Source: Acinetobacter qingfengensis
GTDB lineage: Bacteria > Pseudomonadota > Gammaproteobacteria > Pseudomonadales > Moraxellaceae
Assembly: GCF_008693185.1 (NCBI RefSeq)
Contig: NZ_VXKN01000003.1
Coordinates: 1 to 64,000 of the forward strand
DNA length: 64,000 nucleotides
Reading direction: 5' to 3'
Below the pieces are notes generated by a model. It did not search any database and was not told where the DNA came from. It saw nothing but the letters and a program-made list of their open reading frames with translations. This document shows positions 2,758 to 52,854 of this stretch, in pieces. The position numbers and the translations under genes were made by a program. The stretch's first letter is position 1. Each line of letters begins with the position of its first letter.

Positions 2758-3228
2758 TTAGAAACGGTAATGAGAGAAGGCTTTGTTAGCTTCAGCCATA
2801 CGGTGCACGTCTTCACGTTTTTTGATTGCTGCACCTTTGCCTTCAGCTGCATCAAGCAACTCACCAGCAAGACGTAAAGCCATAGTTTTTTCAGAACGCT
2901 TTGCAGCAGCATCTACTAACCAACGCATAGCCAAGGCAGTACGACGGGATGGGCGTACTTCCATAGGTACTTGATAAGTAGCACCACCAACACGGCGTGC
3001 TTTTACTTCGACCATTGGACGAACTTTTTCAAGAGTGGTTTCAAAAAATTCTACTGGATCGACTTTATTTTTTTCTTGAACACGGTCTAAAGCACCATAA
3101 ACGATACTTTCTGCAATAGATTTTTTACCATCTTGCATCACGTGGTTCATAAATTTAGCAATTGTTTGGCTACCGAACTTAGGATCCGGAAGGATTTCAC
3201 GGGCAGCGACTACGCGACGTCTTGGCAT
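2758..3228 (-). CDS. rpsG: 30S ribosomal protein S7
   Basis: S7 nucleates assembly of the 30S head by binding 16S rRNA and lines the E site. The protein is 156 residues, the standard bacterial length, starting [17 protein letters not shown]. An in-frame ATG 63 nt further upstream would add 21 residues unlike any S7, so the start at 3228 was chosen. The conserved basic N-terminus and the segment GGATYQVP are present. It lies between rpsL and fusA in the str operon. S7 represses its own operon by binding the mRNA in E. coli; conservation here is untested. Confidence 0.98.
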
Positions 3229-3392
3229 TTTAATACACCTAATATTATGACACTTCAGGATAATCCAGCAGTTTGTGCAAGTGTCATGCACGCTACGCTG
3301 GCCTTACTATACGTCGCTTGAATTTCAAATCTGTTACACACATTCAAACAAGCGAAACGCTAAAGGATTTTTGGTACTTTTTTTCCTAAAAA

Positions 3393-3767
3393 TTATTTCT
3401 TAGGACGTTTTGCACCATATTTAGAACGTGACTGGTTACGATCTTTCACACCAGCACAGTCTAAAGAACCACGAACAGTGTGATAACGTACACCCGGTAA
3501 GTCTTTAACACGACCACCACGGATTAATACAACACTGTGTTCTTGTAAATTGTGGCCTTCACCACCGATATAGCTAGAAACTTCAAAACCAGAAGTTAAG
3601 CGAACACGGCAAACTTTACGCATTGCTGAGTTAGGTTTTTTAGGTGTAGTTGTATATACACGAGTACACACACCACGGCGCTGAGGACAAGCCTTAAGCG
3701 CAGGAACTTTGGATTTCTCAACCAAAGTAGAACGACCCTTACGGATCAACTGATTTGTTGTTGCCAT
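3393..3767 (-). CDS. rpsL: 30S ribosomal protein S12
   Basis: S12 sits at the decoding centre and helps set translational accuracy. At 124 residues it has the typical length. The [10 protein letters not shown] loop is intact, with Lys43 and Lys88 present; changes at these positions cause streptomycin resistance in other bacteria, so this allele looks sensitive. It is the first gene of the str operon. A GGGAG ribosome binding site precedes the ATG, and a good promoter and leader hairpin lie further upstream. Confidence 0.99.
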
Positions 3768-3793
3768 ATGGCAATTCTCCCGTTATTAAACAA

Positions 3794-3825
3794 CCTTAAA
3801 AAGTAAAAAATGCCACTTTTTAAGG
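3794..3825 (-). other. Hairpin at the 5' end of the str operon leader
   Basis: CCTTAAAAAGT (3794-3804) and ACTTTTTAAGG (3815-3825) form a perfect 11-bp stem with a 10-nt loop. The predicted transcription start is near 3826, so the stem would form at the very 5' end of the mRNA. Such 5' stems can protect transcripts from RNase E. A terminator or attenuator role is less likely because no U-run follows the stem on the operon strand. Confidence 0.6.
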
Positions 3826-3832
3826 GCATGGA

Positions 3833-3861
3833 ATTGTAGTCTATATCAGAATGCCGGTCAA
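3833..3861 (-). promoter_or_regulatory. Promoter of the str operon
   Basis: On the minus strand there is a -35 box TTGACC, a 17-nt spacer and a -10 box TACAAT, placed 66 nt upstream of the rpsL ATG. This is a near-consensus sigma70 arrangement, as expected for a strong ribosomal promoter. Confidence 0.75.
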
Positions 3862-3941
3862 CAATTAGTAATCAAACATGAGGTTTAAAATACGGTATTG
3901 AATTATGGATTAATCACGATATTTATAAAACACTAAGGCCT

Positions 3942-3976
3942 GCTGAAATTTTATGTGTGACGAATAAAATTCCAGC
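3942..3976 (-). terminator. Possible terminator after the EcsC-family gene
   Basis: An imperfect inverted repeat (GCTGAAATTTTAT / ATAAAATTCCAGC, one mismatch) lies about 40 nt beyond the stop codon of the EcsC-family gene. It is AT-rich and lacks a clear T-run, so termination is uncertain. Confidence 0.3.
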
Positions 3977-4013
3977 AAACCATTTACGTACGACTATTTA
4001 CTAATTAATCAGA

Positions 4014-5369
4014 CTATTGGTCACTACCCTGCGCTTTTGTTACTTTTTTCTGACGAGGTGATCGTTTTGCTTTTGCCTGACCAGAAGGTGTTTTTTGGGT
4101 AGTTTGTGGCACTGTATTATGCGTCGTTTGCTGGTTTTCATACTCTGGATTTAGAGATTTTTCGGCTACAGGAGTTTCAACGTACTGCTCTGCCAGTGCT
4201 TCAATCCCTTTTTGTATGGCAATATCATCCGGCACTTCAACAACAGCCTGTTCGGTATTTTGCTGTTGGTCTTTGTCCTGAACTTGTACTTCTACAATGG
4301 CATCATTCTTTGGTTCTGTAGCACTACTTGATTTCTGATAGGAAGATGACTCATGTAATTCAGGTATAAATGCTTTTTTATTTTCATCTACTCTATTTTG
4401 CTGGTAAGCATCAAATACAGAGATCTGTTGATCATGATGAATTTGTAAATATTGACGCGCTGAGGCAAACATTTCATCGGCCTGTTTAGCCACAGCATCA
4501 ATCATTTTTACATTATAGTATGCTGCCACTGCACCACCAATGACCGGTGTCACAAACTTTAATACAGAAATTTTATGCAGCCATTGCAATTTAGACCATT
4601 TATACTGTCCTTGCTGATCTTTAAAATAATCTTGGAATTGTGCAATTGAGTAACCTGTACCCAAGAAATTTTGTAGTTGTTGATAATCACCAGATTTAAA
4701 AATACTCTGTAATGTACGCAATCCCAGAAGAATGGTTTGTTTTTCTGCAACCAAGCCAATGTCTGCTTTTGACAGTGCATGATATACCGCCCGTTGATCT
4801 TCATCATTATCCAGTTCAAAACCATACACATGACCAATTTCATAAATGGTTTTTAAGCTAATAATCACTGAAACAGGTAAATCAATCGCGGCACCAACCA
4901 CACCTGTTGCACCACAAATTGCCCCTTGTGTCACAGCCAGGATTTTATTGTTTTCTTTAAATGCACGACTTGCTCGTTGTGAGCGTTCAAGATTTTGCTG
5001 TAATTCCTCGATATTTTTTTGTCCTGTTTGATGAAGCACATGATCTGTTGTAGCAATTTGTCGAGAAAAATCACTCAATAATTTAAACACTTCATCAGCG
5101 GCCTGATCCAGACCATTTGGGACTACAAATCTCGCCAATTGATTTACAGTTGTATAATGCCGACCCAAAACCTGACGGGTAATGGATGGAAACTGATGAC
5201 GGAACATTTGCTGTACATCCGCATAATCTGTATCTAAGGGATCTCGGATTTTTGCTTCTCCTTCAATGACCTGATGATTCTGAACTTTTGAAGATGAGGA
5301 AGCAGCATTTTTTTTTGCAATTGTTTTCAGTTGTTTGACCATACCCAAAATAGCTGATGTTTTACTCAT
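4014..5369 (-). CDS. EcsC family protein
   Basis: The protein is 451 residues. The central part (about residues 75-300) resembles the EcsC domain, named for the third gene of the Bacillus ecs ABC-transporter operon, whose own biochemistry is unknown. Two hydrophobic glycine-rich helices, around GATGVVGAAIDLPVSVII and VTPVIGGAVAAYY, suggest membrane association. The last 150 residues are low-complexity, acidic and Gln-rich and end in a Lys/Arg-rich tail, so they are probably disordered. It is transcribed away from the MoxR/VWA locus, from which it is separated by 208 nt, so the two could share a control region. The function is not known. Confidence 0.75.
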   Translation of the reverse strand: MSKTSAILGMVKQLKTIAKKNAASSSSKVQNHQVIEGEAKIRDPLDTDYADVQQMFRHQFPSITRQVLGRHYTTVNQLARFVVPNGLDQAADEVFKLLSDFSRQIATTDHVLHQTGQKNIEELQQNLERSQRASRAFKENNKILAVTQGAICGATGVVGAAIDLPVSVIISLKTIYEIGHVYGFELDNDEDQRAVYHALSKADIGLVAEKQTILLGLRTLQSIFKSGDYQQLQNFLGTGYSIAQFQDYFKDQQGQYKWSKLQWLHKISVLKFVTPVIGGAVAAYYNVKMIDAVAKQADEMFASARQYLQIHHDQQISVFDAYQQNRVDENKKAFIPELHESSSYQKSSSATEPKNDAIVEVQVQDKDQQQNTEQAVVEVPDDIAIQKGIEALAEQYVETPVAEKSLNPEYENQQTTHNTVPQTTQKTPSGQAKAKRSPRQKKVTKAQGSDQ

Positions 5370-5519
5370 ATCTTTTCTCTAATAAATTGTGTGTATTTAT
5401 TCTCATTAAAAGCAGTTTTGTGTCGTGATGCAAGTTTGTTATGTTATTAAAGCGTTTAAAAATTATCTTTATTTTACCTTGAAAAGAATTTCACTTACCG
5501 ACTTATAACACGAAAACTT

Positions 5520-5547
5520 TTGACTTTAACACGCTAAACCATAATAT
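5520..5547 (+). promoter_or_regulatory. Promoter of the MoxR/VWA locus
   Basis: TTGACT (5520-5525), a 16-nt spacer and TAATAT (5542-5547) lie 30 nt upstream of the ATG of the AAA+ ATPase gene. The predicted leader is only about 24 nt and has no strong Shine-Dalgarno sequence. Confidence 0.55.
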
Positions 5548-5577
5548 AAAAATCATCACTTTTATGAATAGATTCAG

Positions 5578-6678
5578 ATGACTATCAACAATATTGCCAC
5601 TACAGAACAATTAAGACAAAGTGCAGAACACAAATATGCTGATGAATTAAATTTACTTCGGCAACAAGACAAAAAAGTCAGACCTTCCGGTTGGCAACTT
5701 TCTGCCCACGCTGTACGAGATTTTATTTTGGGTAATGAGCATCTGAGAATTAGTAAAAAATTTTATGGTGATGATGCACTGGTTGATCGTGCATTGGTTA
5801 CGCTAATGGGAAAGCAAGGATTAATGCTGGTTGGCGAACCCGGAACCGCAAAATCCATGCTTTCGGAATTATTGAGTGCAGCAATTGGAGGGAGTTCACA
5901 ATTTACTGTTCAGGGAACGGCAGGCACGACTGAAGACCATATTAAATATTCATGGAATTACGCTTTATTACTTTCACAAGGCCCTACTGAACAATCATTG
6001 ATTCCCTCTCCAGTTTTTTATGCTATGCAACAAGGTTGTATTGCGCGCTTTGAAGAAATTACTCGCTGCCCTGCGGAAATTCAGGACGTTTTGGTATCGT
6101 TATTGTCAGAAAAACAGATCATGATTCCAGAAATGGGACAAAATTTTAGCCTACATGCCAATAAAGGATTTAATCTGATTGCAACTGCCAATTTACGTGA
6201 TCGTGGCGTGCATGAAATGTCTTCAGCCCTCAAACGACGCTTTAACTTTGAAACGGTTAAACCCATTAAAGATCGTGCGTTTGAAGTTGAATTATTACAA
6301 TTACAACTTAAAAACGAACTTCAGGAGCTTAACAATGAAGTAAATATTCAGCCTGATATTATTGAGTTGCTGGTAACTGTTTTTCAGGAATTACGCTCAG
6401 GGCAAACGCAACAAGGAACGCAATTAAAAACACCAGATGCAGTGATGTCAACAGCCGAAGCAGTAAATATTGCGCATGCTGCCTGTTTACAAGCAATTTA
6501 TCTGGATGGTGGTGAATTAAGTGCAGCTCACCTTGCGCAACAACTTTTAGGTGTCGTTTTTAAAGATAATGCAGATGATGCTAGACGATTACGTTATTAC
6601 CTTGATACCGTCGTTAAAGAACGTAGTCGTCAGGATCGACACTGGAAAGCATTTTTTGAAGCCAGTCGGAATTTTTAA
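5578..6678 (+). CDS. MoxR-type AAA+ ATPase, YehL-like
   Basis: This is a 366-residue AAA+ ATPase of the MoxR group, which act as chaperones or remodellers together with VWA-domain partners. Walker A GEPGTAKS is at residues 86-93, Walker B IARFEE at 155-160, sensor 1 IATAN at 201-205, and the arginine-finger segment ALKRRF at 217-222. The extended N-terminus of about 60 residues, the partner genes downstream and the overall length match the YehL subfamily of MoxR proteins. It heads a plus-strand operon and its stop is followed after 3 nt by the DUF5682 gene, so translation is likely coupled. The client of the complex is unknown. Confidence 0.88.
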   Translation: MTINNIATTEQLRQSAEHKYADELNLLRQQDKKVRPSGWQLSAHAVRDFILGNEHLRISKKFYGDDALVDRALVTLMGKQGLMLVGEPGTAKSMLSELLSAAIGGSSQFTVQGTAGTTEDHIKYSWNYALLLSQGPTEQSLIPSPVFYAMQQGCIARFEEITRCPAEIQDVLVSLLSEKQIMIPEMGQNFSLHANKGFNLIATANLRDRGVHEMSSALKRRFNFETVKPIKDRAFEVELLQLQLKNELQELNNEVNIQPDIIELLVTVFQELRSGQTQQGTQLKTPDAVMSTAEAVNIAHAACLQAIYLDGGELSAAHLAQQLLGVVFKDNADDARRLRYYLDTVVKERSRQDRHWKAFFEASRNF

Positions 6679-6681
6679 ATC

Positions 6682-9222
6682 ATGGATGTTTTTTCCACAG
6701 TATGTTGGCCAGAACGTTTAACTGAGGCACTGCAAAAACAGCAACAATTGATGCAACAGAATATCTTCTTTGCACCGATTCGCCATCATAGTCCTGCCTG
6801 TGCGTATACACTAAAATATTACATTCAAGATTTACAGCCTACACATATTCTGATTGAAGCACCATATAGCTTTCAACCGTTACTTACCGATTTATTATCT
6901 GAACATACCGTACCTCCTATCGCAATTTTTGCTCAGGCACACATGCCAAATAATCGTAAAAGCGAAGATTGTGAAGATACGGCTAATTTATTACATTCTG
7001 CTTATTTTCCTTTTTGCGATTATTCACCCGAATGGATTGCTTTGCATGAAGGTCACAATCTTGAGGCAAAATTACAATTTATTGATCAAAGCTGGGCAGA
7101 ACAATGTCACCAGCAAATGTCCCTTAATCAGAACTCAACACAACAAAATAATTTAATGCAAGAACGTTATTTGGCACATAGCCAATTTATTCAGCAACTT
7201 GCACAACGTTTACATTGCCGCAACCATGATGAATTATGGGATCATTTATTTGAACTACAAACTCCTGAACAACTGCATCAGGCACAGGATTTCTTTAAGC
7301 ATGTGTTTGGCTGGTGTGCTTTAGCACGGCTAGACTATGAACAAGAAGTATTATTAAGGGAAGGCTCACTACATCGTGAATATTGTATGCTACAGCATAT
7401 TCAGCCGCTGATGGGACAAGACCATAAGATTTTGGTTGTGACAGGTGGATTTCACACATTGGCATTGATTGAGCAATTAACTGATCAAACACCACACAAA
7501 TATTTAATTGACTCCGGAGCAGTCAAATGGTCAGAACAAAACTGGTTAATCCGCTATAGTTTTGATCGGCTGGATGCATTAAATGGTTATGCATCTGGCA
7601 TGCCTTCACCTGCATATTATCAAAGTTTATGGCAAAATCTGAACCAGATGACTGGTAATCCTTTGTCGAAGCAAGAACATCCGTCAGAAAATACCACACA
7701 ACACTGTCTTGATTATCTTAGCCGACTATGCCGAGAGTTGGCAGATAAACAAGCTCTGGAAGTCACGCCATACATTGCCTTGAAGCATACATCAGAATTG
7801 GCGCTTGGTCTGGCACAGTTAAGAGGACATTATCGCCCGAGTCGTTATGATATCTTAGATGCACTACAAACAGCATTAATTAAAGGTGAAATGGATGATG
7901 GTCAACACTATTTACTAAAATGTATCCATGACTATGTAAGTGGACAGCAATTGGGACAAGTAGCAAAAACTCAGCGTAGCCCGGCTTTATTACAAAATAC
8001 TTATCAGCTTGCCCAAAATTTTCGCTTTAAACTGGATGACACTCTAAATAAACAACGAAAACTGGATATTTATCGAAAACCCCTACACCAAAAAATCAGC
8101 CAATTTTTACATTTACTGAGTTATATCAATGTGGGATTTGCTGAATGCTTGTCTGGCCCTGACTTTGTTCATGGTGTCAGCATGTCATTATTATTTGAAG
8201 AATGGCGTTATGCATGGACACCAAGTGTAGAAGCGCGATTAATTGAACTGGCAGAACAAGGTGATCAGCTTAAAATAATTGCTAGTCGGCAACTATTACA
8301 AACACAGCAACAATTACAAAAACAGGGGCTTGGGCAATCGGCAGATCATACCGCCAAATTATTTGCACAAGCGTGTCAATTGGGATTGAATCAGCAACTG
8401 GCTTTGTTTAGCCAGCAATTAAATCAATATTTGCATCAGGATCAAAATTTAGGTTCACTGATTAATGCCACAGAACAACTTTTTTATCTCTGGCATGGCA
8501 AAACACTATTACAATTACCTGAGCAATTATTAAAAGAAAATATTATTTTGGCACTGCAACAAGCGTGTTTTGCACTGGATCAAATTTATGATGAACATGA
8601 AGAAAAAATTGAAAAGAATCTTAAAAATTTAAAAACATTGCATACACTACTTCATAACAGCAGACAACAATTTAATATCGACAATCCTTTGGAATTATTT
8701 TATCAAAATATCGATGTTTCCAGACTGCAACATATTCAACTTGCTAAATTATTTGGCGCTTTGCAATGTTTACTTTACCTGGATGGCCATTTAAGTAGCT
8801 CTGCACTTCAACAATCCATCGTACAGGCGTTTGGCTCTGGGTCACATCCTGAGTCTGCCATACAATATCTTCAAGGTATATTATTTATCGCACCTGAGAT
8901 CTTTGTACAATCTGACATTGCCATCAAAACTTTACATCAATTGATCGGAAAATGGCAAGATGAGGAATTTTTAAGACTTTTGCCGGATTTACGCTATATC
9001 TTCAGTCAACTTAGCCCTCAACAGAGTCAATGTATTTCAGAAAAGATTTCCCAATATACAGGCTTACAAAATGATCTAGTCCTTGATCAGGTCTATGGTC
9101 ATATTTCTGAACAGGAAATGTTGCTAGGCGCAGCACTGAATCAGCAATTAAAAACCATGCTAGAAAAAAATCAGTTACAAGAGTGGATAAATACATCTAT
9201 TCAAACAGGAGAATCATCATGA
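6682..9222 (+). CDS. DUF5682 family protein, YehM-like
   Basis: The protein is 846 residues with no signal peptide or membrane segment. The N-terminal domain carries RHHSPAC (34-40), LIEAP (57-61) and TGGFH (254-258), the pattern of conserved His/Glu motifs seen in DUF5682. The spacing recalls the TraB/GumN and erythromycin-esterase-like proteins, which suggests a hydrolytic or metal-binding site; this is inference. The remaining 550 residues are helical and Gln/Leu-rich, probably a scaffold. The stop codon overlaps the start of the VWA gene (ATGA), so the products should be made in fixed ratio with the ATPase and VWA protein. No enzymatic activity is known to me for the family. Confidence 0.8.
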   Translation: MDVFSTVCWPERLTEALQKQQQLMQQNIFFAPIRHHSPACAYTLKYYIQDLQPTHILIEAPYSFQPLLTDLLSEHTVPPIAIFAQAHMPNNRKSEDCEDTANLLHSAYFPFCDYSPEWIALHEGHNLEAKLQFIDQSWAEQCHQQMSLNQNSTQQNNLMQERYLAHSQFIQQLAQRLHCRNHDELWDHLFELQTPEQLHQAQDFFKHVFGWCALARLDYEQEVLLREGSLHREYCMLQHIQPLMGQDHKILVVTGGFHTLALIEQLTDQTPHKYLIDSGAVKWSEQNWLIRYSFDRLDALNGYASGMPSPAYYQSLWQNLNQMTGNPLSKQEHPSENTTQHCLDYLSRLCRELADKQALEVTPYIALKHTSELALGLAQLRGHYRPSRYDILDALQTALIKGEMDDGQHYLLKCIHDYVSGQQLGQVAKTQRSPALLQNTYQLAQNFRFKLDDTLNKQRKLDIYRKPLHQKISQFLHLLSYINVGFAECLSGPDFVHGVSMSLLFEEWRYAWTPSVEARLIELAEQGDQLKIIASRQLLQTQQQLQKQGLGQSADHTAKLFAQACQLGLNQQLALFSQQLNQYLHQDQNLGSLINATEQLFYLWHGKTLLQLPEQLLKENIILALQQACFALDQIYDEHEEKIEKNLKNLKTLHTLLHNSRQQFNIDNPLELFYQNIDVSRLQHIQLAKLFGALQCLLYLDGHLSSSALQQSIVQAFGSGSHPESAIQYLQGILFIAPEIFVQSDIAIKTLHQLIGKWQDEEFLRLLPDLRYIFSQLSPQQSQCISEKISQYTGLQNDLVLDQVYGHISEQEMLLGAALNQQLKTMLEKNQLQEWINTSIQTGESS

Positions 9223-10382
9223 CAAAACCCGATTCTACTGTCGAACACCCACCTCACGATCCATTGGAACAAGCCAGACGTTGGCGGCTCATTCTGGGAC
9301 GATATGCAGATAAAAATTTACAACAAGCCAATCTTTCAGGTCAGCAATTGCAATTGGAACGCTCTCTGGATTTTTTATATCAACACGAATATAAACGCCG
9401 TGGTATCCATCAACACCAACACCGTCATGGTAGTCTGGATGCCTCACAACTGACGGCAATTAACTGGCTCAATCAAAGTCGTAAACTTTTTCCCAAATCT
9501 ACATTTGAGCGCATGCAGAAGCAAGCGATCGAACGCTACCAAATGAGTCATTTATTAAAAAGTCCTGAACATATTCAGCAATTAGATCCCAGTCCCGAAA
9601 TTGCTAAAGCCTTATTGAGTATGCGAGGACAATTAAATGCTGAAATGCGTACTGCAATTAAAAACTTAATTACTCAAGTCGTTGCAGATATGCTGGAAAA
9701 GATTCGTCCACGTTTTTTACAAACCATACAGGGTCGGCGTCATCGTTTTAAACGCTCACACATCAAACAATCACAAAACTTTGACTGGCGCCGTACAATT
9801 GCATTGAATTTAAAACATTATCAACCTTCTCTACAACAATTGATTATTCAACAGCCTGTGTTTAATGCTCGTGTACAGCAACATTTACCCTGGGAAATTG
9901 TATTGTGCGTTGACCAAAGCGGCTCCATGATGGATTCCGTGATGTACGCAGCAATTTGTGCCAGTATTTTGGCAGCTTTACCAGCAGTTACAACACATCT
10001 CGTATTGTTTGATACACAAGTGGTAGATCTAACACATCTGGCACATGATCCGGTTGAAATTTTACTGACGATTCAATTAGGTGGTGGAACGAATATTGCT
10101 CAAGCCATGCACTATTGTGCCCAAAAGATCACCCAGCCCCAGAGAAGTATATTTATTTTAATCAGTGATTTTGAAGAAGGTGGATCGATTCAAGATATGT
10201 TACGAGTAACCGCTCAATTAAATGAACAAGGTTGTCGTTTGCTTGGACTTGCCGCACTGGATCAAGCGGCACATCCTGTTTATGATAAAAATACCGCACA
10301 ACAGCTACAGCAACGTGGCATGCAGGTTGCTGCCATGACACCTGAACATCTGGCCGACTGGTTTGCCGAGGTCATGCAATGA
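9219..10382 (+). CDS. VWA domain protein, YehP-like
   Basis: The protein is 387 residues from the ATG at 9219, which has a good GGAGA ribosome binding site; an in-frame upstream ATG at 9183 lies inside the previous gene and lacks one. The C-terminal half is a von Willebrand A domain with a complete metal-ion (MIDAS) site: DQSGSM, the GGGTN threonine and ISDFEEGG. The N-terminal 200 residues are basic and helical. VWA proteins are the standard partners of MoxR ATPases, where ATP hydrolysis acts on clients bound by the MIDAS. Its start overlaps the DUF5682 stop, and its stop overlaps the SWIM gene start by 4 nt. Confidence 0.88.
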   Translation: MTKPDSTVEHPPHDPLEQARRWRLILGRYADKNLQQANLSGQQLQLERSLDFLYQHEYKRRGIHQHQHRHGSLDASQLTAINWLNQSRKLFPKSTFERMQKQAIERYQMSHLLKSPEHIQQLDPSPEIAKALLSMRGQLNAEMRTAIKNLITQVVADMLEKIRPRFLQTIQGRRHRFKRSHIKQSQNFDWRRTIALNLKHYQPSLQQLIIQQPVFNARVQQHLPWEIVLCVDQSGSMMDSVMYAAICASILAALPAVTTHLVLFDTQVVDLTHLAHDPVEILLTIQLGGGTNIAQAMHYCAQKITQPQRSIFILISDFEEGGSIQDMLRVTAQLNEQGCRLLGLAALDQAAHPVYDKNTAQQLQQRGMQVAAMTPEHLADWFAEVMQ

Positions 10383-12430
10383 GTCAGCATATTTACACTC
10401 AATATGATGAAGACAGTCTGATGACTTTTGCTAATGCTGGTTTACTTAGACGTGCCAAAAAATCACTGGATACGGTGCAACCACAACAGGATATCGCAAC
10501 TACAGTCTTACCTTTTAAATTTATGGTAGAGGGATATGAGGTAATTTTACCTGAGCAAGGTATTGTTGCAGCCAGTTGTAATTGTCCGGCACAGGAGTGC
10601 TGTAAACATATTCTGAGTAGTATTTTATGGCTACAAACACAGCAATTTATTGCAACTGATACCGCAACGATCACAATACCATCATCTGAGAATCAATGTT
10701 CTGCACTACAATCAGCAATGTCTTTGGACATAGAAAAACTGCAAAAACAGGTTGGTAAAGCACAACGTTTATTGGCTCAACAAATCGTACAGGACTGGTT
10801 GCAAACTCCAGATCATTGCCGCATTGACCTTCAACCAGAAAAAATCTTGTTTTACACTCAATACTCAAGTTCTGCGATTAATTATTTTGCCAATACAGGA
10901 TTTTCCGGTATGTTGTCGGACATCGCTAATTCACAAAAGTCAGCAGTTCATTTGGCCTGTATTGCCTATTTATTTCAGCAACAGCAACAATTTTGGCACT
11001 GGCAAGACCAAACACAATTTATAGACGTAGCATCTGAACAATTACAACCTGATCAACGCCAATTCATTGAAGATATTCTTGATTTTTGTCTAAATCTCAT
11101 TCAACACGGCTTATCACATATTACTCAGACATCTGTCATGGCACTACATTTATTGAACATGCAGGCGCGTACACAGGATTTACCCCGACTTGCTGCACAA
11201 TTACGTCAACTTTATAGTCAAATTGAACAATTACTGGCAGAAGATATACATTGTCATGAAAGCCATATTTTCCAAGAACTTGCTGGCTTATATGCTTATT
11301 TAAATGTTTTAAAACAAAGTCATGAACCAAAACAGCTTATGTTACTTAAAGGACAAGCACGGCGTGATTACCAAAACACCTCCTTCAACCACTTACTAGC
11401 TCTGGGCGCAGAATGGTGGCAAATACCTAGTGGCGCACGTGGCTTGACGTTATGCTTTTGGGATGATCAACAAAACACTTTGGTCGAGGTGACTCAAGCT
11501 CGTAGTAATGCACTGGATTTAAGTTTTGATCAAAGTAGTGTTGCCAACAATGGAATATGGGGGTGTTCATTATCCTTTTTGCTTAAAAACCAGATACAAC
11601 TTTCTCAGGCCAAAATGACTGAATCGATGCAGATCAGCCCATCAAAAGAGACCACTGTACACGTTTTAGCACCTTTAGCCGAACTATCGCCATCGGTTTT
11701 TCGGGATAAGCAGATTGGCATTCAGAATTGGCAACAATTACAAGATAAAATTCAGCAAAACAACCCATTATTTTCACAAACTACACAATATTTTTTCCTG
11801 AATATTGAAAGTATGAGTGAAATTGAACTTAATGAAATTAACCAGCGTTTTGAATTCTGGGTAGAGGATGTCAACGGACAACAATTACAGCTTTCCTTAG
11901 CTGTTCAATCCGGGCAACAATACAAAATTGAACAACTGGATTACTGGCGTAAACAGCAAAAAATTATCGGTATATTGGTACGCATACAACGCCAAGCGCA
12001 AGCATTATATTTTATCCCCGTCAGCTTAATGCTAAATCGTGAACATCCGGAAATTTTTAGTCTGGATTATGATCGTATTCCGGTAGTCAAAAAACAAAAA
12101 AGTCTATTGGAAAATCTGGCCGGACGAATCACTAAATTACTCGAAAAGCAACAACAGCAAGCTTTCGTGGCAAACTTTCCTCAAAATCAGATTGATCTGA
12201 GTTTAACACATACCCTGACCTTGCTGGAATTTTATGCCAATACAGGCAGACAACAATTTGATGAAGATGATCAACTACAAATTAATGCATTAATTGAACA
12301 ATTTCGGTCGCTTGGATTAAATATCATGGCAGAAGTATTACAACAACAACCGTTTACAACCATGCTTTTAAAGACTCGATTTTTGATAGAGATGTTACAT
12401 AACCTGCGTCAACAGTTACCTTTAAAGTGA
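10379..12430 (+). CDS. SWIM zinc-finger protein, YehQ-like
   Basis: The protein is 683 residues. Near the N-terminus it has a SWIM-type zinc-binding motif, CxCx5CxH, at Cys67, Cys69, Cys75 and His77. SWIM domains bind nucleic acid or protein in other families. The rest has no recognisable catalytic motif and is Gln/Leu-rich with beta-strand-like stretches around residues 330-560. The start overlaps the VWA gene by 4 nt (ATGA). The ATPase, DUF5682, VWA and SWIM genes therefore form one tightly coupled transcription unit, the same order as E. coli yehL-yehM-yehP-yehQ. Confidence 0.82.
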   Translation: MSQHIYTQYDEDSLMTFANAGLLRRAKKSLDTVQPQQDIATTVLPFKFMVEGYEVILPEQGIVAASCNCPAQECCKHILSSILWLQTQQFIATDTATITIPSSENQCSALQSAMSLDIEKLQKQVGKAQRLLAQQIVQDWLQTPDHCRIDLQPEKILFYTQYSSSAINYFANTGFSGMLSDIANSQKSAVHLACIAYLFQQQQQFWHWQDQTQFIDVASEQLQPDQRQFIEDILDFCLNLIQHGLSHITQTSVMALHLLNMQARTQDLPRLAAQLRQLYSQIEQLLAEDIHCHESHIFQELAGLYAYLNVLKQSHEPKQLMLLKGQARRDYQNTSFNHLLALGAEWWQIPSGARGLTLCFWDDQQNTLVEVTQARSNALDLSFDQSSVANNGIWGCSLSFLLKNQIQLSQAKMTESMQISPSKETTVHVLAPLAELSPSVFRDKQIGIQNWQQLQDKIQQNNPLFSQTTQYFFLNIESMSEIELNEINQRFEFWVEDVNGQQLQLSLAVQSGQQYKIEQLDYWRKQQKIIGILVRIQRQAQALYFIPVSLMLNREHPEIFSLDYDRIPVVKKQKSLLENLAGRITKLLEKQQQQAFVANFPQNQIDLSLTHTLTLLEFYANTGRQQFDEDDQLQINALIEQFRSLGLNIMAEVLQQQPFTTMLLKTRFLIEMLHNLRQQLPLK

Positions 12431-12535
12431 CAATTTGTGTCGTGCAACAACAATACTATACTTTTTTATCAATATCTTTTTTCCTAAAATTTTTTTAATG
12501 AAAAAAACCATCTGTAAGATAGACGGAACCGAATT

Positions 12536-15500
12536 ATGCTGAATCAATTATTTAATAAATTAGGTAATTTACTTGGGTTACAAGACCAAGCTTCATTGCA
12601 ACTCATTCAAACCATTGTGATGCCACTTGCAAAAATAGATGAGCAACTGGCTTTACAGGCCGTCAACTATATTGTTGAAGGGAATAATCCTGAAATTTTA
12701 CTAACATTATCTCAGTATCCTGATGATAGACTTTGTACCTTATTAGATCATCCGGGAACGTATGGCTGGTATCACCCACAATATCATCCCAATCATGAAG
12801 AAAAAAAACTGATCAAGGCATCTGTTAATGCCCGTACCAAACTCTATATTCATTTATTTGAAAAACTCAGTGCAGAACAAATTATTCGTTATAGCAAATT
12901 TTTAGAGGCTGCCACCCAACTTCGAAATTTCAAACAGATTACACCAGATGCACCCAAATGGTTTATCTATCTGGTTGTCGATGCATTTATCAAAACCGAT
13001 CATTCCCACCAGCACAACCTACCTGAAATTAAAAAATATCTGGAAAGTTGGCGTCTGGAAAAACTTTATCAACTTTTGGAGCAAAATCAGGAAGGAACGG
13101 GTATACAAGCTTTTTATGTGCTATTTGAACGCAATGAAGTAGACAGTTATCATCACGATCGCCTGCAAACCATGTTTCGCCTACAAGATTGTAGCAGCTT
13201 TTTACTCCAGCATATCGACACCGTTACCAAGATACTTCCGCAATTCAGTGCATCAGGACAATTACAATTTATTGAATTCTGCAAAAAGTTTCCTGAATTT
13301 CGCAAACAAGTTCCTGAACTGATAACAGCATTAAGTCTGAGTAATAGTAAAACTGTTCGTAACCAAGCAACACCGATGCTTTCGCAACTAAAAACAGAAG
13401 ACAGCCAATACTATCTCAAGCATTATTTACAACAAGGTTCCAGTAAACAAAGAGGCTATGCCGCAGATCAATTGGCAAGACTTGGAGAGCATAATCTAAC
13501 GATTTTGCAGCACGCCTTATCTGAGGAAAAACAGAAATCGGTGCAGGACAATATTCAGGCTGCAATTAACCGTATTAATAGTGTACAGGCAGTGACTCAA
13601 GCAGAACACAGCAATACACTTGTATTACCGGAATTAAAACCATTAACATTTCAGGACATTCCAGAACAATTTAAACAGGTTCTTCAGGAAAATTATCAAC
13701 AAGTTCTGGACAAAGCCAGACAATCGGCAGAGAGTGAAAAACAAGATAATAAAACCCGCCAGTATAAATATGACTGGGCGCAACGGCGTTATAAAGAACT
13801 ATCGGCATATACGCAACAGGATATCGATCAAATCTTTAATGCCATCAATGGCGCGAACAAACTCAAAAAAGCCGATAGTTATCCGATTATTTATCATCAA
13901 AATAAGTTACTAAATTATCCTGAATACAGCATATTACATGCAATTCGGATTATTTTTAATCGAGGTCGGGATCATTATATTCATTGGAGTAGTGTTTTTG
14001 AGAAACTCAAGCCGGAGCATTATCAACATCTTGAACTGCGTCAACTTGAGCAAATTTTACAACAAATCGGTGTGCATCAGCCTGAACGACAGATTGCCAG
14101 AACCATTTTGATCCATGATTATTGGGATTCCCTAAATCATTACTTTCAGGATAAAGATGCCATTTGGCCATTTTTTGCAGAGCATCTAGATCTGATTTCT
14201 GAGGCTTTAGGGTTATTGCCAAATCAGGAAAAAAATCAATATTACCAATACTCTCCAAGCAAAGCCATTATGATTCTCGGTACTTTCCCAACTTTGCCTG
14301 CGCAATATATTCCTCGTTTACTGGAACTGGCTTTGGGAGAAAACAAGAATCTAAGAGTAGAAGCTCAGCAACTGTTAAAAAATGTCCCAAACATCCAGCA
14401 ACGTGCCATTGAGGCCTTACAATCAGGCAAACAGGAAATTCGAATTACCGCCATTGAGTGGCTAGCACGACTTCAACATCCTGAAGCCATACAACCTTTG
14501 AATGAATTGCTGAAGAAAGAAAAAAAAGAAGTGGTACGTGCAGCTTTACTCACTGCAATTGAGCAATTAGGACAAGATATTTCGGCTTACCTTTCACCAG
14601 ATCTATTACAAAAAGAAGCTGAAAAAGGCTTACAAGCGAAAGTTTCCAGTAGTTTTCACTGGTTTAATCTTGCGCTATTGCCACAACTAAAATGGAAAGA
14701 TGGCACAGATATCAACCCACAAATCATTCAATGGTGGGTAATTTTAGCAGAAAAACTCAAGGATCCGATTCCCAATGCTTTGTTACAACGGTATCTGGAG
14801 TTACTGGAGCATAAAAGTCAGCAAATATTAGCGCTATTCCTGCTACAAAGTTTTATTCAACAAGACACCCTACACCCAAGTATTGAAGAAGCAATAGAGC
14901 AAGCCATTCATCATGCTCCTCAACGCCTGAATAACTATCAGGATATGTTTAAACGTTACGGACAAAAATATCCCGAATATTACGGCAAATATGAACACGT
15001 CACACTAGAACAAGTACAAGATGAAATCAAACGTGAACATCTGGGAATCTATCTGGGTTCTGCCATTAAAAGTAAAGGCATACTGGCATTGACCTATCCG
15101 ATAGCTGGCGCTCAAGCGGTCAAATTGTTACAGGATTATATGAAGCAGCATTATCAACGACGTGCGCAAATTGAATCCATGCTCAGTGCCTTATCAGTGA
15201 GTAATGATCCACTGATTATTCAGCTGCTACTCTCAATTTCAAGACGTTATCGCACAGCCTCAGTACAAAAACTTGCGAAACAATTTATTGAACAAATTGC
15301 TGATCGCAACCATTGGAGTAGTGACGAATTAGCAGATCGAACCATTCCAACCGCAGGTCTGGATGACACAGGGATCCTTACACTAGATTATGGTAGTCGT
15401 ACACTCACAGCTCATGTTGATGCAAATGACAAATTTATCCTGAACAATGAAGATGGAAAAATAATTAAAGCATTACCAGCAGCCCGTCAAGGCGATGATG

Positions 15501-16303
15501 AAAGTGCCATTAAAGAATCCAAAGCGTTATTCAACAACAGTAAAAAAGAATTTAAACAAATCATAAACTTACAAACTCAACGTTTATGTGAAGCTATGTG
15601 TAGTGAACGATTATGGACTGTTGCAGATTGGCAGGAATATATTTTTGCACATCCAGTTATGCAACGCTTGATCCAGCGCCTAGTATGGCTGGAAGTCGAT
15701 GATCAAGGACAAATTATACAAACTTTCCGTCCAAGTGATGATGGTAGCCTGCTTAATCTTGAAGATGATGAAATTCAACTGAATAGCCAAAATAAAATTA
15801 AAATTGCTCACACAGTGTTACTTAATCATGAGCAAACACAGGCATGGCAAACACATTTTAAAGATTACAAAGTTAAATTCCTATTTGAACAAATGCAGCA
15901 TGCCCTACCCGAAATTAAAGACGCAACCAGTACATTTATTGAAGATCGTAAAGGTTGGTTAACGGATACCTATACTCTACGTGGCGTAATTAGCAAATTA
16001 GGTTATCAGCGTGCCAGTATTGAAGATGGAGGCTCTTTTGACAGTTATTACAAATTTTTTAGTCAACTGGAAATTTCTGCAGTAATTCACTTTAGTGGCA
16101 GTTTTGTTCCTGAAGAAAATATTCCTGCCGTGTTATATGACCTTACTTTTGAAAAAAATCAGATTCGCACATGGTCGGCACAGGGAATACCACTTGATCA
16201 AATACCAAAAGTGTTACTGGCTGAATGTTATGCAGACTATCTTAAACTTGCCGCTGCATGTTCAGGTTATGATCCAGAATGGGAGAAAAAAACACCGTGG
16301 TAA
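12536..16303 (+). CDS. Large DUF4132 protein (YehI/MolR-like) with HEAT-like repeats
   Basis: The protein is 1255 residues, similar to the E. coli DUF4132 proteins YehI and MolR (about 1200-1260). The middle (roughly residues 600-680) has HEAT-like helical repeats that suggest a protein-binding scaffold. The C-terminal 250 residues hold the DUF4132 core, with sequences such as ERLWTVADWQEYIF and FRPSDDGSL. No Walker, protease or nuclease motif was found. It starts 105 nt after the SWIM gene, with a GGAA ribosome binding site, and is probably in the same transcript. MolR was once linked to molybdate regulation in E. coli, but this is weak evidence of function. Confidence 0.82.
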   Translation: MLNQLFNKLGNLLGLQDQASLQLIQTIVMPLAKIDEQLALQAVNYIVEGNNPEILLTLSQYPDDRLCTLLDHPGTYGWYHPQYHPNHEEKKLIKASVNARTKLYIHLFEKLSAEQIIRYSKFLEAATQLRNFKQITPDAPKWFIYLVVDAFIKTDHSHQHNLPEIKKYLESWRLEKLYQLLEQNQEGTGIQAFYVLFERNEVDSYHHDRLQTMFRLQDCSSFLLQHIDTVTKILPQFSASGQLQFIEFCKKFPEFRKQVPELITALSLSNSKTVRNQATPMLSQLKTEDSQYYLKHYLQQGSSKQRGYAADQLARLGEHNLTILQHALSEEKQKSVQDNIQAAINRINSVQAVTQAEHSNTLVLPELKPLTFQDIPEQFKQVLQENYQQVLDKARQSAESEKQDNKTRQYKYDWAQRRYKELSAYTQQDIDQIFNAINGANKLKKADSYPIIYHQNKLLNYPEYSILHAIRIIFNRGRDHYIHWSSVFEKLKPEHYQHLELRQLEQILQQIGVHQPERQIARTILIHDYWDSLNHYFQDKDAIWPFFAEHLDLISEALGLLPNQEKNQYYQYSPSKAIMILGTFPTLPAQYIPRLLELALGENKNLRVEAQQLLKNVPNIQQRAIEALQSGKQEIRITAIEWLARLQHPEAIQPLNELLKKEKKEVVRAALLTAIEQLGQDISAYLSPDLLQKEAEKGLQAKVSSSFHWFNLALLPQLKWKDGTDINPQIIQWWVILAEKLKDPIPNALLQRYLELLEHKSQQILALFLLQSFIQQDTLHPSIEEAIEQAIHHAPQRLNNYQDMFKRYGQKYPEYYGKYEHVTLEQVQDEIKREHLGIYLGSAIKSKGILALTYPIAGAQAVKLLQDYMKQHYQRRAQIESMLSALSVSNDPLIIQLLLSISRRYRTASVQKLAKQFIEQIADRNHWSSDELADRTIPTAGLDDTGILTLDYGSRTLTAHVDANDKFILNNEDGKIIKALPAARQGDDESAIKESKALFNNSKKEFKQIINLQTQRLCEAMCSERLWTVADWQEYIFAHPVMQRLIQRLVWLEVDDQGQIIQTFRPSDDGSLLNLEDDEIQLNSQNKIKIAHTVLLNHEQTQAWQTHFKDYKVKFLFEQMQHALPEIKDATSTFIEDRKGWLTDTYTLRGVISKLGYQRASIEDGGSFDSYYKFFSQLEISAVIHFSGSFVPEENIPAVLYDLTFEKNQIRTWSAQGIPLDQIPKVLLAECYADYLKLAAACSGYDPEWEKKTPW

Positions 16304-16352
16304 ACTCTTCCAATATTTCTTTTGGATAGATTCAATTATTTTTTGAGATACG

Positions 16353-16383
16353 GGATACAATGTTAAATTACAACATTGTATCC
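16353..16383. repeat. Perfect 12-bp inverted repeat upstream of fabB
   Basis: GGATACAATGTT (16353-16364) and AACATTGTATCC (16372-16383) are separated by 7 nt. No T-run follows on either strand, so an ordinary terminator is unlikely. It lies 50 nt after the DUF4132 gene and 154 nt before fabB, and could be an operator or an mRNA 3'-end stabiliser. Confidence 0.55.
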
Positions 16384-16536
16384 ACCGATCCAAATCAGAC
16401 GATCGCTAACAGTAAAACTTTTATTGAAAAATAATCCAGTTCACCAGTAAATCTAATATCTTTCGCCATTGCAGCCAGATAATAAACAAGCTTAAATGAC
16501 GTTAATCTTTTTAGTAACGAATATAAGGGATTTTAC

Positions 16537-17769
16537 ATGACTCGTCGTGTTGTGATCACAGGTATGGGTATTAACTCATGTATTGGAAATACACTTGAAG
16601 ATGTTACCCATGCATTAAAAAATGGTATTTCAGGCACCCGTTTTAATCAAACCTATGCCGACCTTAACTTTAAAAGTCATGTAAGTGCTGCCGCAGAACA
16701 AGATTTTGATGGAATTGATCGCAAATTAAAACGTTTTATGGGCGTTTGTGCCATGTATGCCTACAATGCAGCAGTTGATGCAATCAAACATGCTGGGTTA
16801 ACAACAGAAGACCTCACCAATAACCCTCGTTATGGAATTGCAGGAGGTAGTGGTGGTAACTCTACTGCATCTGTCGTTGAAATGACCAAATTATTAGAAG
16901 AAAAAGGCGCACGCAAAATTGGTCCATTTTTCGTCCCTCGCAATATGAGTAACACCATTACAGCCAATCTGGGTGTCGCATTCAAATTACAAGGTGTTGC
17001 ACATTCAATCACCAGTGCCTGTGCAACTTCTGCTGATGCCATTGGTTATGCATACAATCTGATTCAATTGGGTAAACAAGACTTGATGCTCGCTGGTGGT
17101 GGTGAGGAAGATCATTGGTCACAAAGTCTATTATTTGATGCTATGGGTGCACTTAGCTCAAAATATAATGACACACCGGAACAGGCTTCCCGTCCATATT
17201 CTGCTGATCGTGATGGCTTTGTCATTGCTGGTGGCGGTGGTTTTGTTATTCTTGAATCACTTGAACATGCACAGGCGCGTGGTGCAAACATTCTTGCTGA
17301 AGTTGTGGCTTATGCTGCCAATAGTGATGGTGCAGATATGGTTGCGCCAAGTGGTGAAGGTGCAACACGCTGTATCCTGATGGCATTAGATGAAGCCAAA
17401 CAACATGGAGTTGAACAGGTTGATTACGTCAATACACATGGCACATCTACCCCTGCTGGCGATGTAACTGAGCTTAAGGCTATGGAACGTGCTTTTGGTG
17501 AAGGTCAAGTTCCACCAATTAGCTCAACTAAATCCATGACAGGCCATAGTTTAGGCGCTGCTGGTGTACATGAAGCGATCTACTCTGTACTGATGATGCA
17601 AAATGACTTTATTGCGCCAAATATTAACGTTACCGACCTAGACGAAGGTGCAAAAGGCTTTGATATTGTACTTGAAAAACGTGATGCAAAACTGAATACT
17701 ATCATGAGTAATAGTTTTGGTTTTGGTGGTGTAAATGCTTGCCTGATTTTCAAAAAATGGGCTAATTAA
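16537..17769 (+). CDS. fabB: 3-oxoacyl-ACP synthase I (KAS I)
   Basis: This enzyme condenses malonyl-ACP with acyl-ACP in fatty-acid elongation and, as the FabB type, is needed for unsaturated fatty acids in gammaproteobacteria. It is 410 residues, the usual size. The catalytic Cys162 lies in SITSACATS, with His301 in NTHGTSTPAGD, Lys332 and His337 in KSMTGHSLGAAG. The C-terminal glycine-rich NSFGFGGVNA is present. A ribosome binding site, AAGGGA, precedes the ATG. hemJ follows 25 nt downstream. No fabA is adjacent, unlike the fabA-fabB pair in Pseudomonas. Confidence 0.95.
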   Translation: MTRRVVITGMGINSCIGNTLEDVTHALKNGISGTRFNQTYADLNFKSHVSAAAEQDFDGIDRKLKRFMGVCAMYAYNAAVDAIKHAGLTTEDLTNNPRYGIAGGSGGNSTASVVEMTKLLEEKGARKIGPFFVPRNMSNTITANLGVAFKLQGVAHSITSACATSADAIGYAYNLIQLGKQDLMLAGGGEEDHWSQSLLFDAMGALSSKYNDTPEQASRPYSADRDGFVIAGGGGFVILESLEHAQARGANILAEVVAYAANSDGADMVAPSGEGATRCILMALDEAKQHGVEQVDYVNTHGTSTPAGDVTELKAMERAFGEGQVPPISSTKSMTGHSLGAAGVHEAIYSVLMMQNDFIAPNINVTDLDEGAKGFDIVLEKRDAKLNTIMSNSFGFGGVNACLIFKKWAN

Positions 17770-17794
17770 CACTACTCACATTTAAGGGTTATTC

Positions 17795-18247
17795 ATGGAT
17801 GCGCCATCTGATGCTTTTCTTTGGGTAAAAGCATTACATATTATCGCAGTGATCTGTTGGTTCGCTGCGTTATTTTATCTTCCAAGATTATATGTTTACC
17901 ATGCCATGAGTGATGACAACATCAGTCATCAACGCTTTCAAATCATGGAGCGCAAACTTTACCGTGGCATCATGTGGCCTTCTATGATTGCAACCTTAAT
18001 TACAGCACATTTTTTGGTTGCCTGGGGTGACCCGATTTATCATTATCATGAAGCGATCTGGTTTTACCTTAAGGTAGCATTGGTTGCGATTTTGATTATC
18101 TATCATCTGGTATGTGGATATTACCGCAAGAAACTGATTGAAAATGCCCATTATAAATCACATAAATTCTGGCGTATGTTTAATGAACTACCCACGTTAA
18201 TTTTAGTTGCTGTCATTATTCTTGTTGTTGTCAAGCCTCAGTTTTAA
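17795..18247 (+). CDS. hemJ: Protoporphyrinogen IX oxidase HemJ
   Basis: HemJ is a small inner-membrane protein that oxidises protoporphyrinogen IX to protoporphyrin IX in haem synthesis; it is the form used by Acinetobacter instead of HemG or HemY. The protein is 150 residues with four predicted membrane helices. It shows the family motifs KALHIIAVICWFA near the N-terminus (His15), the FYLPRL segment, and MERKLYRGIMWPSM. It follows fabB on the same strand and is followed by a terminator, so the two may be cotranscribed. Confidence 0.92.
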   Translation: MDAPSDAFLWVKALHIIAVICWFAALFYLPRLYVYHAMSDDNISHQRFQIMERKLYRGIMWPSMIATLITAHFLVAWGDPIYHYHEAIWFYLKVALVAILIIYHLVCGYYRKKLIENAHYKSHKFWRMFNELPTLILVAVIILVVVKPQF

Positions 18248-18271
18248 TTTTTAAAACTATATTGTTTTTCC

Positions 18272-18301
18272 AAGCCTTATACTATATCTAAGGCTTTTTT
18301 T
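18272..18301 (+). terminator. Rho-independent terminator after hemJ
   Basis: AAGCCTTA / TAAGGCTT form an 8-bp stem with a 9-nt loop, followed by a T-run, 25 nt after the hemJ stop. Confidence 0.8.
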
Positions 18302-18748
18302 ATGGTTTAAATACAATATATCCGTCCTGATTTAATATAACGTCAGTTCAAGACAAAATTTTTTATTTTCTACAAATAAATTTAATGTTAATCAAAGAGT
18401 CACGACTGAGTTTTACTAAATGAAGCATATTTTAGGATCAACCTTCGATTTGACCTACTTTTCTTTTAGTATCAGGAACATTGTTTTGCAACATTAAAAC
18501 CATCTTGCGCATGAGAAATATATTTCGTAAAGCTGCTCACTGCAAATTCGGTCAAATACCGCTAAAAAATAAGTGAATTGACAAACATTATCTTACAAAT
18601 GATGAGTAGACCTCAAACAAGCAGCAGACATTGCTATAAAACAAATTTCTTTTACTCATCTTATCCCTAATTTATGTTTAGTATAGGCTGACCATTTCAA
18701 ACCAAGACACACACTTAAGGTATCAAAACTAAAATTTGGTATATATTT
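18302..18748. other. Non-coding gap before the IclR-family gene
   Basis: About 450 nt of AT-rich sequence holds no convincing gene, RNA or repeat. The last 100 nt should hold the promoter of the IclR-family gene; a GGTAT direct repeat (about 18719 and 18738) flanks AT-rich sequence there, but I cannot assign it. The rest could be decayed sequence. Confidence 0.4.
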
Positions 18749-51333: not shown

Positions 51334-51419
51334 GCCCGGGTGGTGAAATAGGTAGACACAGGGGATTTAAAATCCCCCGCCCACAAAGCGTGCCGGTTCG
51401 AGTCCGGCCCCGGGCACCA
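51334..51419 (+). tRNA. tRNA-Leu (UAA), copy 1
   Basis: The 86-nt gene with encoded CCA has the acceptor stem GCCCGGG / CCCGGGC and a long variable arm typical of tRNA-Leu. The anticodon loop TTTAAAA holds TAA at 51368-51370. Its sequence and the 53 nt after it are repeated exactly at 52769-52907. Confidence 0.97.
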
Positions 51420-52768: not shown

Positions 52769-52854
52769 GCCCGGGTGGTGAAATAGGTAGACACAGGGGA
52801 TTTAAAATCCCCCGCCCACAAAGCGTGCCGGTTCGAGTCCGGCCCCGGGCACCA
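52769..52854 (+). tRNA. tRNA-Leu (UAA), copy 2
   Basis: This copy is identical in all 86 nt to the gene at 51334-51419, including the encoded CCA and the UAA anticodon. It is followed by the same terminator. Confidence 0.97.

Follow-up and report, generated by a model that had tools for sequence, protein, structure and literature searches.

Positions 5578-16303 of a 64,000-nucleotide stretch from Acinetobacter qingfengensis (contig NZ_VXKN01000003.1, positions 1 to 64,000; hereafter 'the window') hold five open reading frames (ORFs) on the forward strand, none with an internal stop, which encode a MoxR-type AAA+ ATPase, a DUF5682 protein, a VWA protein, a SWIM zinc-finger protein and a DUF4132 protein. 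We found that these five genes form one evolutionary unit that is inherited together, and that four of them (MoxR, DUF5682, VWA and SWIM) are a core to which an exchangeable large fifth protein is joined. The VWA reading frame runs without a stop from a GTG at 9183, but with the ATG at 9219 as its start it overlaps the DUF5682 gene by 4 nt and the gene spacings are 3, -4, -4 and 105 nt. The original prediction, made from the letters alone, had named five ORFs of these families, the first four joined by 3-nt spacing or 4-nt overlaps; the ORF list and Pfam bear out the ORFs, families and positions, and the tight spacing holds with the ATG start.

Loci for comparison (L numbers; genomes carry G numbers) were fetched with MoxR alone as the query, and because the best 80 of 525 relatives were kept, this set is biased towards close relatives. 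All five families were present in 60 of the 80 loci, and together in 48 of the 54 that extend over 9 kb on both sides. The five genes share one strand in 58 of the 60 complete loci, and their order is shuffled, with DUF4132 before, after or inside the core. Complete loci span at least seven phyla (Pseudomonadota, Actinomycetota, Bacillota, Bacteroidota, Spirochaetota, Verrucomicrobiota and Planctomycetota); DUF4132 was not detected in a Myxococcota locus (L143). Of 99 Acinetobacter genomes, 23 have DUF5682 and 19 have DUF4132, the 19 all being among the 23 (19/23 DUF5682-positive versus 0/76 DUF5682-negative genomes), and the other four DUF5682-positive genomes carry only the variant described below as type B. 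A sample of 185 genomes of the class had 4 with DUF5682 over the cut-off and 4 with DUF4132, of which 3 were shared; the exceptions were a type-B genome (G166) and a lone DUF4132 without DUF5682 (G237). Across the phylum sample the distribution of DUF5682 is patchy (14/398 genomes). The co-occurrence of the five genes is beyond chance. The single linked locus built on a MoxR-VWA pair that had been predicted is borne out by this co-occurrence in at least seven phyla: the genes do travel together outside the window's own group, and DUF4132 is not always independent of the other four, although the copy in G237 stands alone.

The position of the unit in Acinetobacter is consistent with this. The EcsC-family gene on its left is core in the genus (97/99 genomes), and 12 of the 99 carry the five-gene cassette between it and a beta-ketoacyl synthase gene, with other genes parting DUF4132 from the rest in one of them (G094). 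Twenty genomes that lack the unit at this place were also sampled, hand-picked from 85 with EcsC but no adjoining unit and mostly on long contigs; none of the 20 has a module gene between the same two genes. At 19 of these empty sites every ORF is shorter than 90 codons or absent, and the remaining one (L162) has a single 117-codon ORF. In three loci (L121, L135 and L144) a single ORF encodes DUF5682 and VWA as a fusion, which argues for the two working in contact.

The fifth protein defines three types. Type A, the core with DUF4132, includes the window and E. coli yehI-yehLMPQ; type B has DUF5691 and type C a large unnamed protein of 1,381-1,744 residues. The order SWIM-DUF5691-MoxR-DUF5682-VWA, or part of it, is found without DUF4132 in seven Acinetobacter loci and in L061. 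Outside Acinetobacter, 16 DUF5682-positive genomes comprise 9 with DUF4132 only, 6 with DUF5691 only and 1 with both, and in the last the two families stand at two separate DUF5682 loci. One or other family lies within 10 kb at 16 of the 17 DUF5682 loci outside the genus; the exception, G440, has it on another contig. The MoxR tree, built without L066, rows outside 340-420 residues and 8 near-duplicates, splits type A (89 rows) from type B (9 rows) by one branch with 100/100 support, and the type-B branch is long. The window is of type A rather than B on both counts, i.e. its fifth gene is DUF4132 and its MoxR falls in the type-A set. The high-scoring type of DUF5682 is that of type B.

Type C was seen in three actinobacterial loci (L134, L135 and L144), where mutually related ORFs of 1744, 1381 and 1520 residues lie directly upstream of MoxR; this protein had no Pfam match (L135, L144) and none to our own DUF4132 and DUF5691 profiles. 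The Acinetobacter type-B fifth genes served as seeds of that DUF5691 profile, and as Pfam DUF5691 is found in only 1 of the 7 type-B Acinetobacter genomes (27.9 bits), their assignment rests on operon place and this one copy. The fifth subunit comes in three or more alternative forms, of which DUF4132 is one, a view that goes beyond the original prediction. The single families, the E. coli and Deinococcus operons (on record without function) and MoxR-VWA machines as a kind were already known; what is new is to unite these operons in a single class whose fifth subunit is exchangeable, and none of the papers that we found does so. DUF5682 and DUF5691 appear in no paper of the open-access literature searched, which leaves aside subscription papers and preprints, and there was no functional study of the yeh gene names among the matches listed there.

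Table 1. Features of the five-gene unit and its borders in the window
Feature	Positions	Strand	Supporting evidence
EcsC-family gene, flank outside the unit, left border of insertion	4014..5369	-	Pfam EcsC E 4.6e-22
Leader between divergent EcsC gene and MoxR	5370..5577	+	no known damage box recognised
MoxR-type AAA+ ATPase, YehL kind, 366 aa	5578..6678	+	Pfam AAA_5 E 3e-36
DUF5682 protein, 846 aa, counterpart of E. coli YehM	6682..9222	+	Pfam E 9.5e-87
VWA (CoxE-like) protein, counterpart of E. coli YehP	9219..10382	+	Pfam VWA_CoxE E 2.1e-53
SWIM zinc-finger protein, 683 aa, counterpart of E. coli YehQ	10379..12430	+	zinc ligands CxCx5CxH
DUF4132 protein, 1255 aa, counterpart of E. coli YehI	12536..16303	+	Pfam DUF4132 E 3.7e-32, HEAT_2 E 7.5e-13
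Beta-ketoacyl synthase gene, flank outside the unit, right border of insertion	16537..17769	+	Pfam

An Rfam search of window positions 3000-18500 gave no match, and base composition did not mark the five-gene unit as foreign. Elsewhere in the window, two tRNA-Leu genes, both with anticodon taa, lie 1.4 kb apart (51334-51419 and 52769-52854). Several further observations concern individual copies. The Acinetobacter type-A loci form two MoxR groups (L043-L048 with L053, versus L049-L052 and L054-L060 with the window), whose different chromosomal places and opposite DUF4132 order suggest separate acquisitions. DUF5682 is broken in two Acinetobacter genomes (L047, L059), by an in-frame stop in G015 and a split in G051, so some copies appear to be decaying. 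One Lachnospiraceae locus has a UvrD-family helicase gene between MoxR and DUF5682 (L123:11202-14768). In Iodobacter fluviatilis the unit lies on the mobilizable plasmid pl1, beside type I restriction genes and insertion sequence elements, with SWIM split into two ORFs (L065). MoxR-DUF5682-VWA also occurs in an unverified phage record (L066, MT835988.1), possibly bacterial DNA in a virome.

The window MoxR is 48% identical to E. coli YehL and 75% identical to that of Acinetobacter rongchengensis. Its AAA+ core has Walker A (K92), Walker B (E159/E160), sensor 1 (N205) and the arginines (R220/R221), all kept in 30 of 30 aligned relatives. Walker B reads F-E-E (E159-E160) in all 30 sequences, with E159 at a position where Asp is usual; the motifs that had been called complete are therefore all there, with one conservative change. 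Two genes downstream, the VWA_CoxE protein has a full metal ion-dependent adhesion site (MIDAS; DxSxS...T...D) at D244, S246, S248, T303 and D329, as had been claimed. It is kept in 29 of 30 aligned relatives, and the remaining one is a truncated sequence with gaps. The SWIM protein scores below the Pfam PF04434 cut-off (16.3 versus 19.6 bits), while type-B SWIM proteins clear it at 29.9-30.4 bits. However, the four zinc ligands C67, C69, C75 and H77 (CxC-x5-CxH) are invariant in 32 aligned sequences (31 of 48 fetched rows and the window), so the earlier zinc-finger assignment stands despite that score.

The DUF4132 protein consists of HEAT repeats, the DUF4132 domain and a C-terminal YugN-like domain. 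Its C-terminal 416 residues were modelled at a predicted local distance difference test (pLDDT) score of 92.9, with HEAT-like helices first, and residues about 1132-1243 resemble YugN 2r5x (Z 9.5, 2.9 Å over 101 residues). The middle of this model, the DUF4132 domain, had no match in a 1000-chain second look, which is no proof of a new fold, and a sequence search of the PDB with the C-terminus gave nothing meaningful. All 60 aligned relatives (59 of 70 fetched rows and the window) match the Pfam DUF4132 domain. DUF4132 also occurs in tandem: 16 of the 80 loci have two or more DUF4132 ORFs, each at least 700 residues long, that do not overlap.

The AlphaFold model of the DUF5682 protein (pLDDT 88.9) has an N-terminal alpha/beta domain (about residues 1-330) followed by long helical repeats. 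Ten residues (R34, H35, H36, E59, D135, R232, E233, M236, G255 and H258) are invariant in 56 sequences (55 of 64 fetched rows and the window). The defining features of the TraB/ChaN (Tiki-like) superfamily are R-x3-M and G-x2-H motifs with an early His and Glu, and these are represented here by R232, M236, G255, H258, H36 and E59. Using profiles of ChaN and TraB built from 17 and 22 of 30 loci each, hhalign lines up the invariant R-E-x2-M...G-x2-H stretch with its counterpart in each family, and the N-terminus scores 26.8 (TraB) and 24.0 (ChaN) versus 22.6 or less in 28 control comparisons. The whole model was compared with known structures by VIA, in a second look: residues 3-271 matched Tetrahymena complex IV chain 8bqs_DQ (Z 11.2, 4.6 Å over 213 residues), residues 1-271 matched ChaN 2g5g (Z 8.5, 5.1 Å over 164 residues) and helical chains matched the other half of the model with Z up to 10.4. 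A TraB-family protein is listed among the complex IV subunits in the Tetrahymena supercomplex paper (PMC10060162). Chain 8bqs_DQ is presumably that subunit, judging from the paper's legend rather than from the chain. Its identity is left as an inference because PDB searches with the ChaN alignment (PDZ tails of alignment members matched, not ChaN) and the TraB alignment (designed proteins only) did not recover those families. We conclude that the N-terminus of DUF5682 is probably a TraB/ChaN-like domain, with H36, E59, R232 and H258 as a candidate active site. Catalysis by DUF5682, guessed at in the original prediction, thus gains fold and motif support that falls short of proof.

A connection to DNA damage comes from Deinococcus. 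There, ddrTUVWX (Deide_18730-18690) is described as a five-gene operon of unknown function that is radiation-induced, IrrE-dependent and part of the IrrE/DdrO regulon; its first gene, for SWIM, is induced over 10-fold and its last, for a VWA CoxE-like protein, over 5-fold, and the operon occurs in 4 of 7 tabulated species, with a radiation/desiccation response motif (RDRM) in all 4 (PMC5552922). In Deinococcus taeanensis we found the order SWIM, DUF5691, AAA, a small ORF, DUF5682 and VWA, with an RDRM-like site ending 20 bp before the SWIM start, the sole one in 21 kb at 3 or fewer mismatches. In E. coli, yehF (WGR) and a DUF4132 pseudogene (yehH) stand just before yehI, and we take yehF-yehH to be molR. 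DUF4132-type genes of D. radiodurans are reported to be up on DdrO depletion (PMC8533742), and E. coli molR, which is DUF4132-related, is listed as LexA-regulated (PMC11039860).

Control sites were also sought at type-A loci, using a UmuDAb-type box and LexA consensus patterns. General SOS control of type A was considered and is not supported: LexA-like boxes lie upstream in 1/33 Bacillota, 1/17 Actinomycetota and 2/8 enterobacterial loci, both of the latter from Proteus. A LexA-like site occurs 9 bp before yehF in two E. coli strains (L002:450-465, L064:2732-2747); the E. coli stretch has 8 LexA-like matches versus a shuffle mean of 5.8, and 25 of 100 shuffles reach 8. In the Acinetobacter leaders, GTCAYAATTTGTCG stands about 80-110 bp before MoxR in L050-L052, L054, L055, L058 and L059 (e.g. 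L052:4664). It is kept in 7 of the 12 cassette-bearing leaders, with a shorter core in 9, while the surrounding leader is not conserved, and neither the 20 empty-site loci nor the window has it. This element is possibly a regulator site.

Together, these data lead us to propose, at a probability of about 50%, that the five genes specify a single ATP-driven machine for protein remodelling, whose client-binding subunit can be swapped and which serves at least in part after DNA damage or stress. MoxR would form a hexameric ring, plugged by the VWA protein, which would transmit force at its MIDAS face. The model for this is NorQ-NorD, in which a finger of the VWA protein reaches into the pore of the hexamer and the MIDAS is turned towards the client (PMC9976466, PMC13036017). 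It is this analogy that suggests MoxR and VWA as motor and adaptor. Force would then be handed to DUF5682, whose predicted TraB/ChaN-like domain would be the catalytic or ligand-binding part, and which the DUF5682-VWA fusion places at the adaptor. The HEAT-rich fifth protein (DUF4132 here) may select the client or sense the trigger, which would explain both the swapping between types and the tandem repeats, and the SWIM protein may bind nucleic acid or protein. The proposed role, recovery from DNA damage or related stress, follows from the place of the type-B sister operon in the radiation regulon of Deinococcus.

Several points weigh against this proposal. Type B matches ddrTUVWX by way of the D. 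taeanensis locus and the published description, and one RDRM-like site in that stretch of D. taeanensis is in itself an ordinary count (0.31 expected); only the place of the site is unusual. The case for damage regulation does not extend to type A, in which the counts of upstream SOS-like boxes are no better than background, and no UmuDAb-type box at up to 3 mismatches was found in the whole window. The stress or repair role guessed at earlier thus draws support from the Deinococcus sister operon and none from the window copy's own promoter. On the structural side, Foldseek with the DUF5682 model gave no match at E <= 0.001, the hhalign probabilities are weak (3.3% for TraB and 1.6% for ChaN; 0.9% with the full length) and a sequence search of the PDB with DUF5682 gave nothing meaningful. 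By sequence, the TraB/ChaN assignment is therefore weak, and it rests on the VIA Z-scores and the motifs.

Other explanations would use the same parts differently. The unit could be a metal- or cofactor-insertion chaperone, in which the ring and VWA open a target metalloenzyme, as with NorQ-NorD or CoxD-CoxE, the ChaN-like domain carries metal or haem, and DUF4132 or DUF5691 recognises the apo-enzyme. The VWA protein belongs to the CoxE family, metal insertion is a task of MoxR-VWA pairs (PMC13036017), the ChaN 2g5g match of DUF5682 is haem-binding, and molR, which is related to the DUF4132 gene, owes its name to molybdate use (cited in PMC8533742). However, no metalloenzyme gene recurs in the flanks, where only three groups among 837 flanking ORFs recur in at least 4 of the 80 named loci, and these were left unannotated; nor did D. 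radiodurans molybdate genes follow DdrO depletion (PMC8533742). We consider metal insertion unlikely.

Patchiness, in the genus (23/99) as in the phylum (14/398), points in another direction, towards an anti-phage or anti-plasmid conflict system in which a large sensor and the ATPase trigger a DUF5682 effector, by a logic like that of the MoxR-vWA ternary systems. Several loci per genome, tandem large proteins, decayed copies and the Iodobacter plasmid copy next to a type I restriction system would fit. Yet PADLOC returned weak matches only (SspB E 0.0024, AbiEi E 0.017 and HEAT-ARM_XIII E 1.7e-8 over 80 repeat residues), the chromosomal site in Acinetobacter is conserved, there is no variable effector slot, and the operon is near-core in E. 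coli (5301/5426 genomes). The conflict role that had been suggested earlier thus found no positive evidence, and we regard it as improbable. The same near-core status would suit a general chaperone, or an assembly factor, that serves a housekeeping complex and has no part in damage or conflict, as would RavA-ViaA, the other E. coli MoxR-VWA pair, which acts on respiratory complexes (PMC3893208). Such a factor is very unlikely, given that the unit is absent from 76/99 Acinetobacter genomes, so its client would have to be dispensable or itself patchy, and that the type-B relative is radiation-induced.

Extending the proposal of a damage- or stress-linked remodelling machine, we tentatively suggest, as somewhat doubtful, a widespread and so far ununified class of such machines in which a MoxR-VWA motor drives a TraB/ChaN-fold enzyme (DUF5682) and SWIM, and the target is set by a plug-in giant subunit, DUF4132, DUF5691 or the type-C protein, that is swapped and copied in tandem. 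If so, the E. coli yeh operon and Deinococcus ddrTUVWX would be two experimentally reachable members, and two orphan gene sets, yehI/yehLMPQ and ddrTUVWX, would be variants of one machine. The yeh-ddr link would give a near-core E. coli operon a testable role, in damage or stress recovery, and a candidate active site.

To our knowledge, NorQ-NorD, CbbQ-CbbO and RavA-ViaA have no DUF5682, SWIM or giant HEAT protein, and their clients are known. What they share with the window is a MoxR ring and a MIDAS-bearing VWA partner (PMC9976466, PMC13036017). The MoxR-vWA ternary conflict systems resemble it in having MoxR, VWA and large partners (PMC7159879), and Pfam bpMoxR scores 26.3 bits at the window locus, just under its cut-off of 27. 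Their third components (VMAP, iSTAND, FtsH and beta-propeller) were not found when the five proteins were scanned with Pfam models at E <= 0.05, and that paper makes no mention of SWIM, TraB, EreA or YehL (PMC7159879). Deinococcus ddrTUVWX is likewise a five-gene operon with SWIM and a VWA CoxE-like protein (PMC5552922), between which MoxR and DUF5682 lie in D. taeanensis; its type differs in having DUF5691 for DUF4132, another gene order and a MoxR on the other side of the 100/100 branch. E. coli yehI-yehL-yehM-yehP-yehQ has the same five families as the window, also on one strand. The content of the yeh match in the original prediction was therefore right, while the order differs: DUF4132 (yehI) lies first in E. 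coli rather than last, preceded by yehF and yehH and separated from yehL by yehK.

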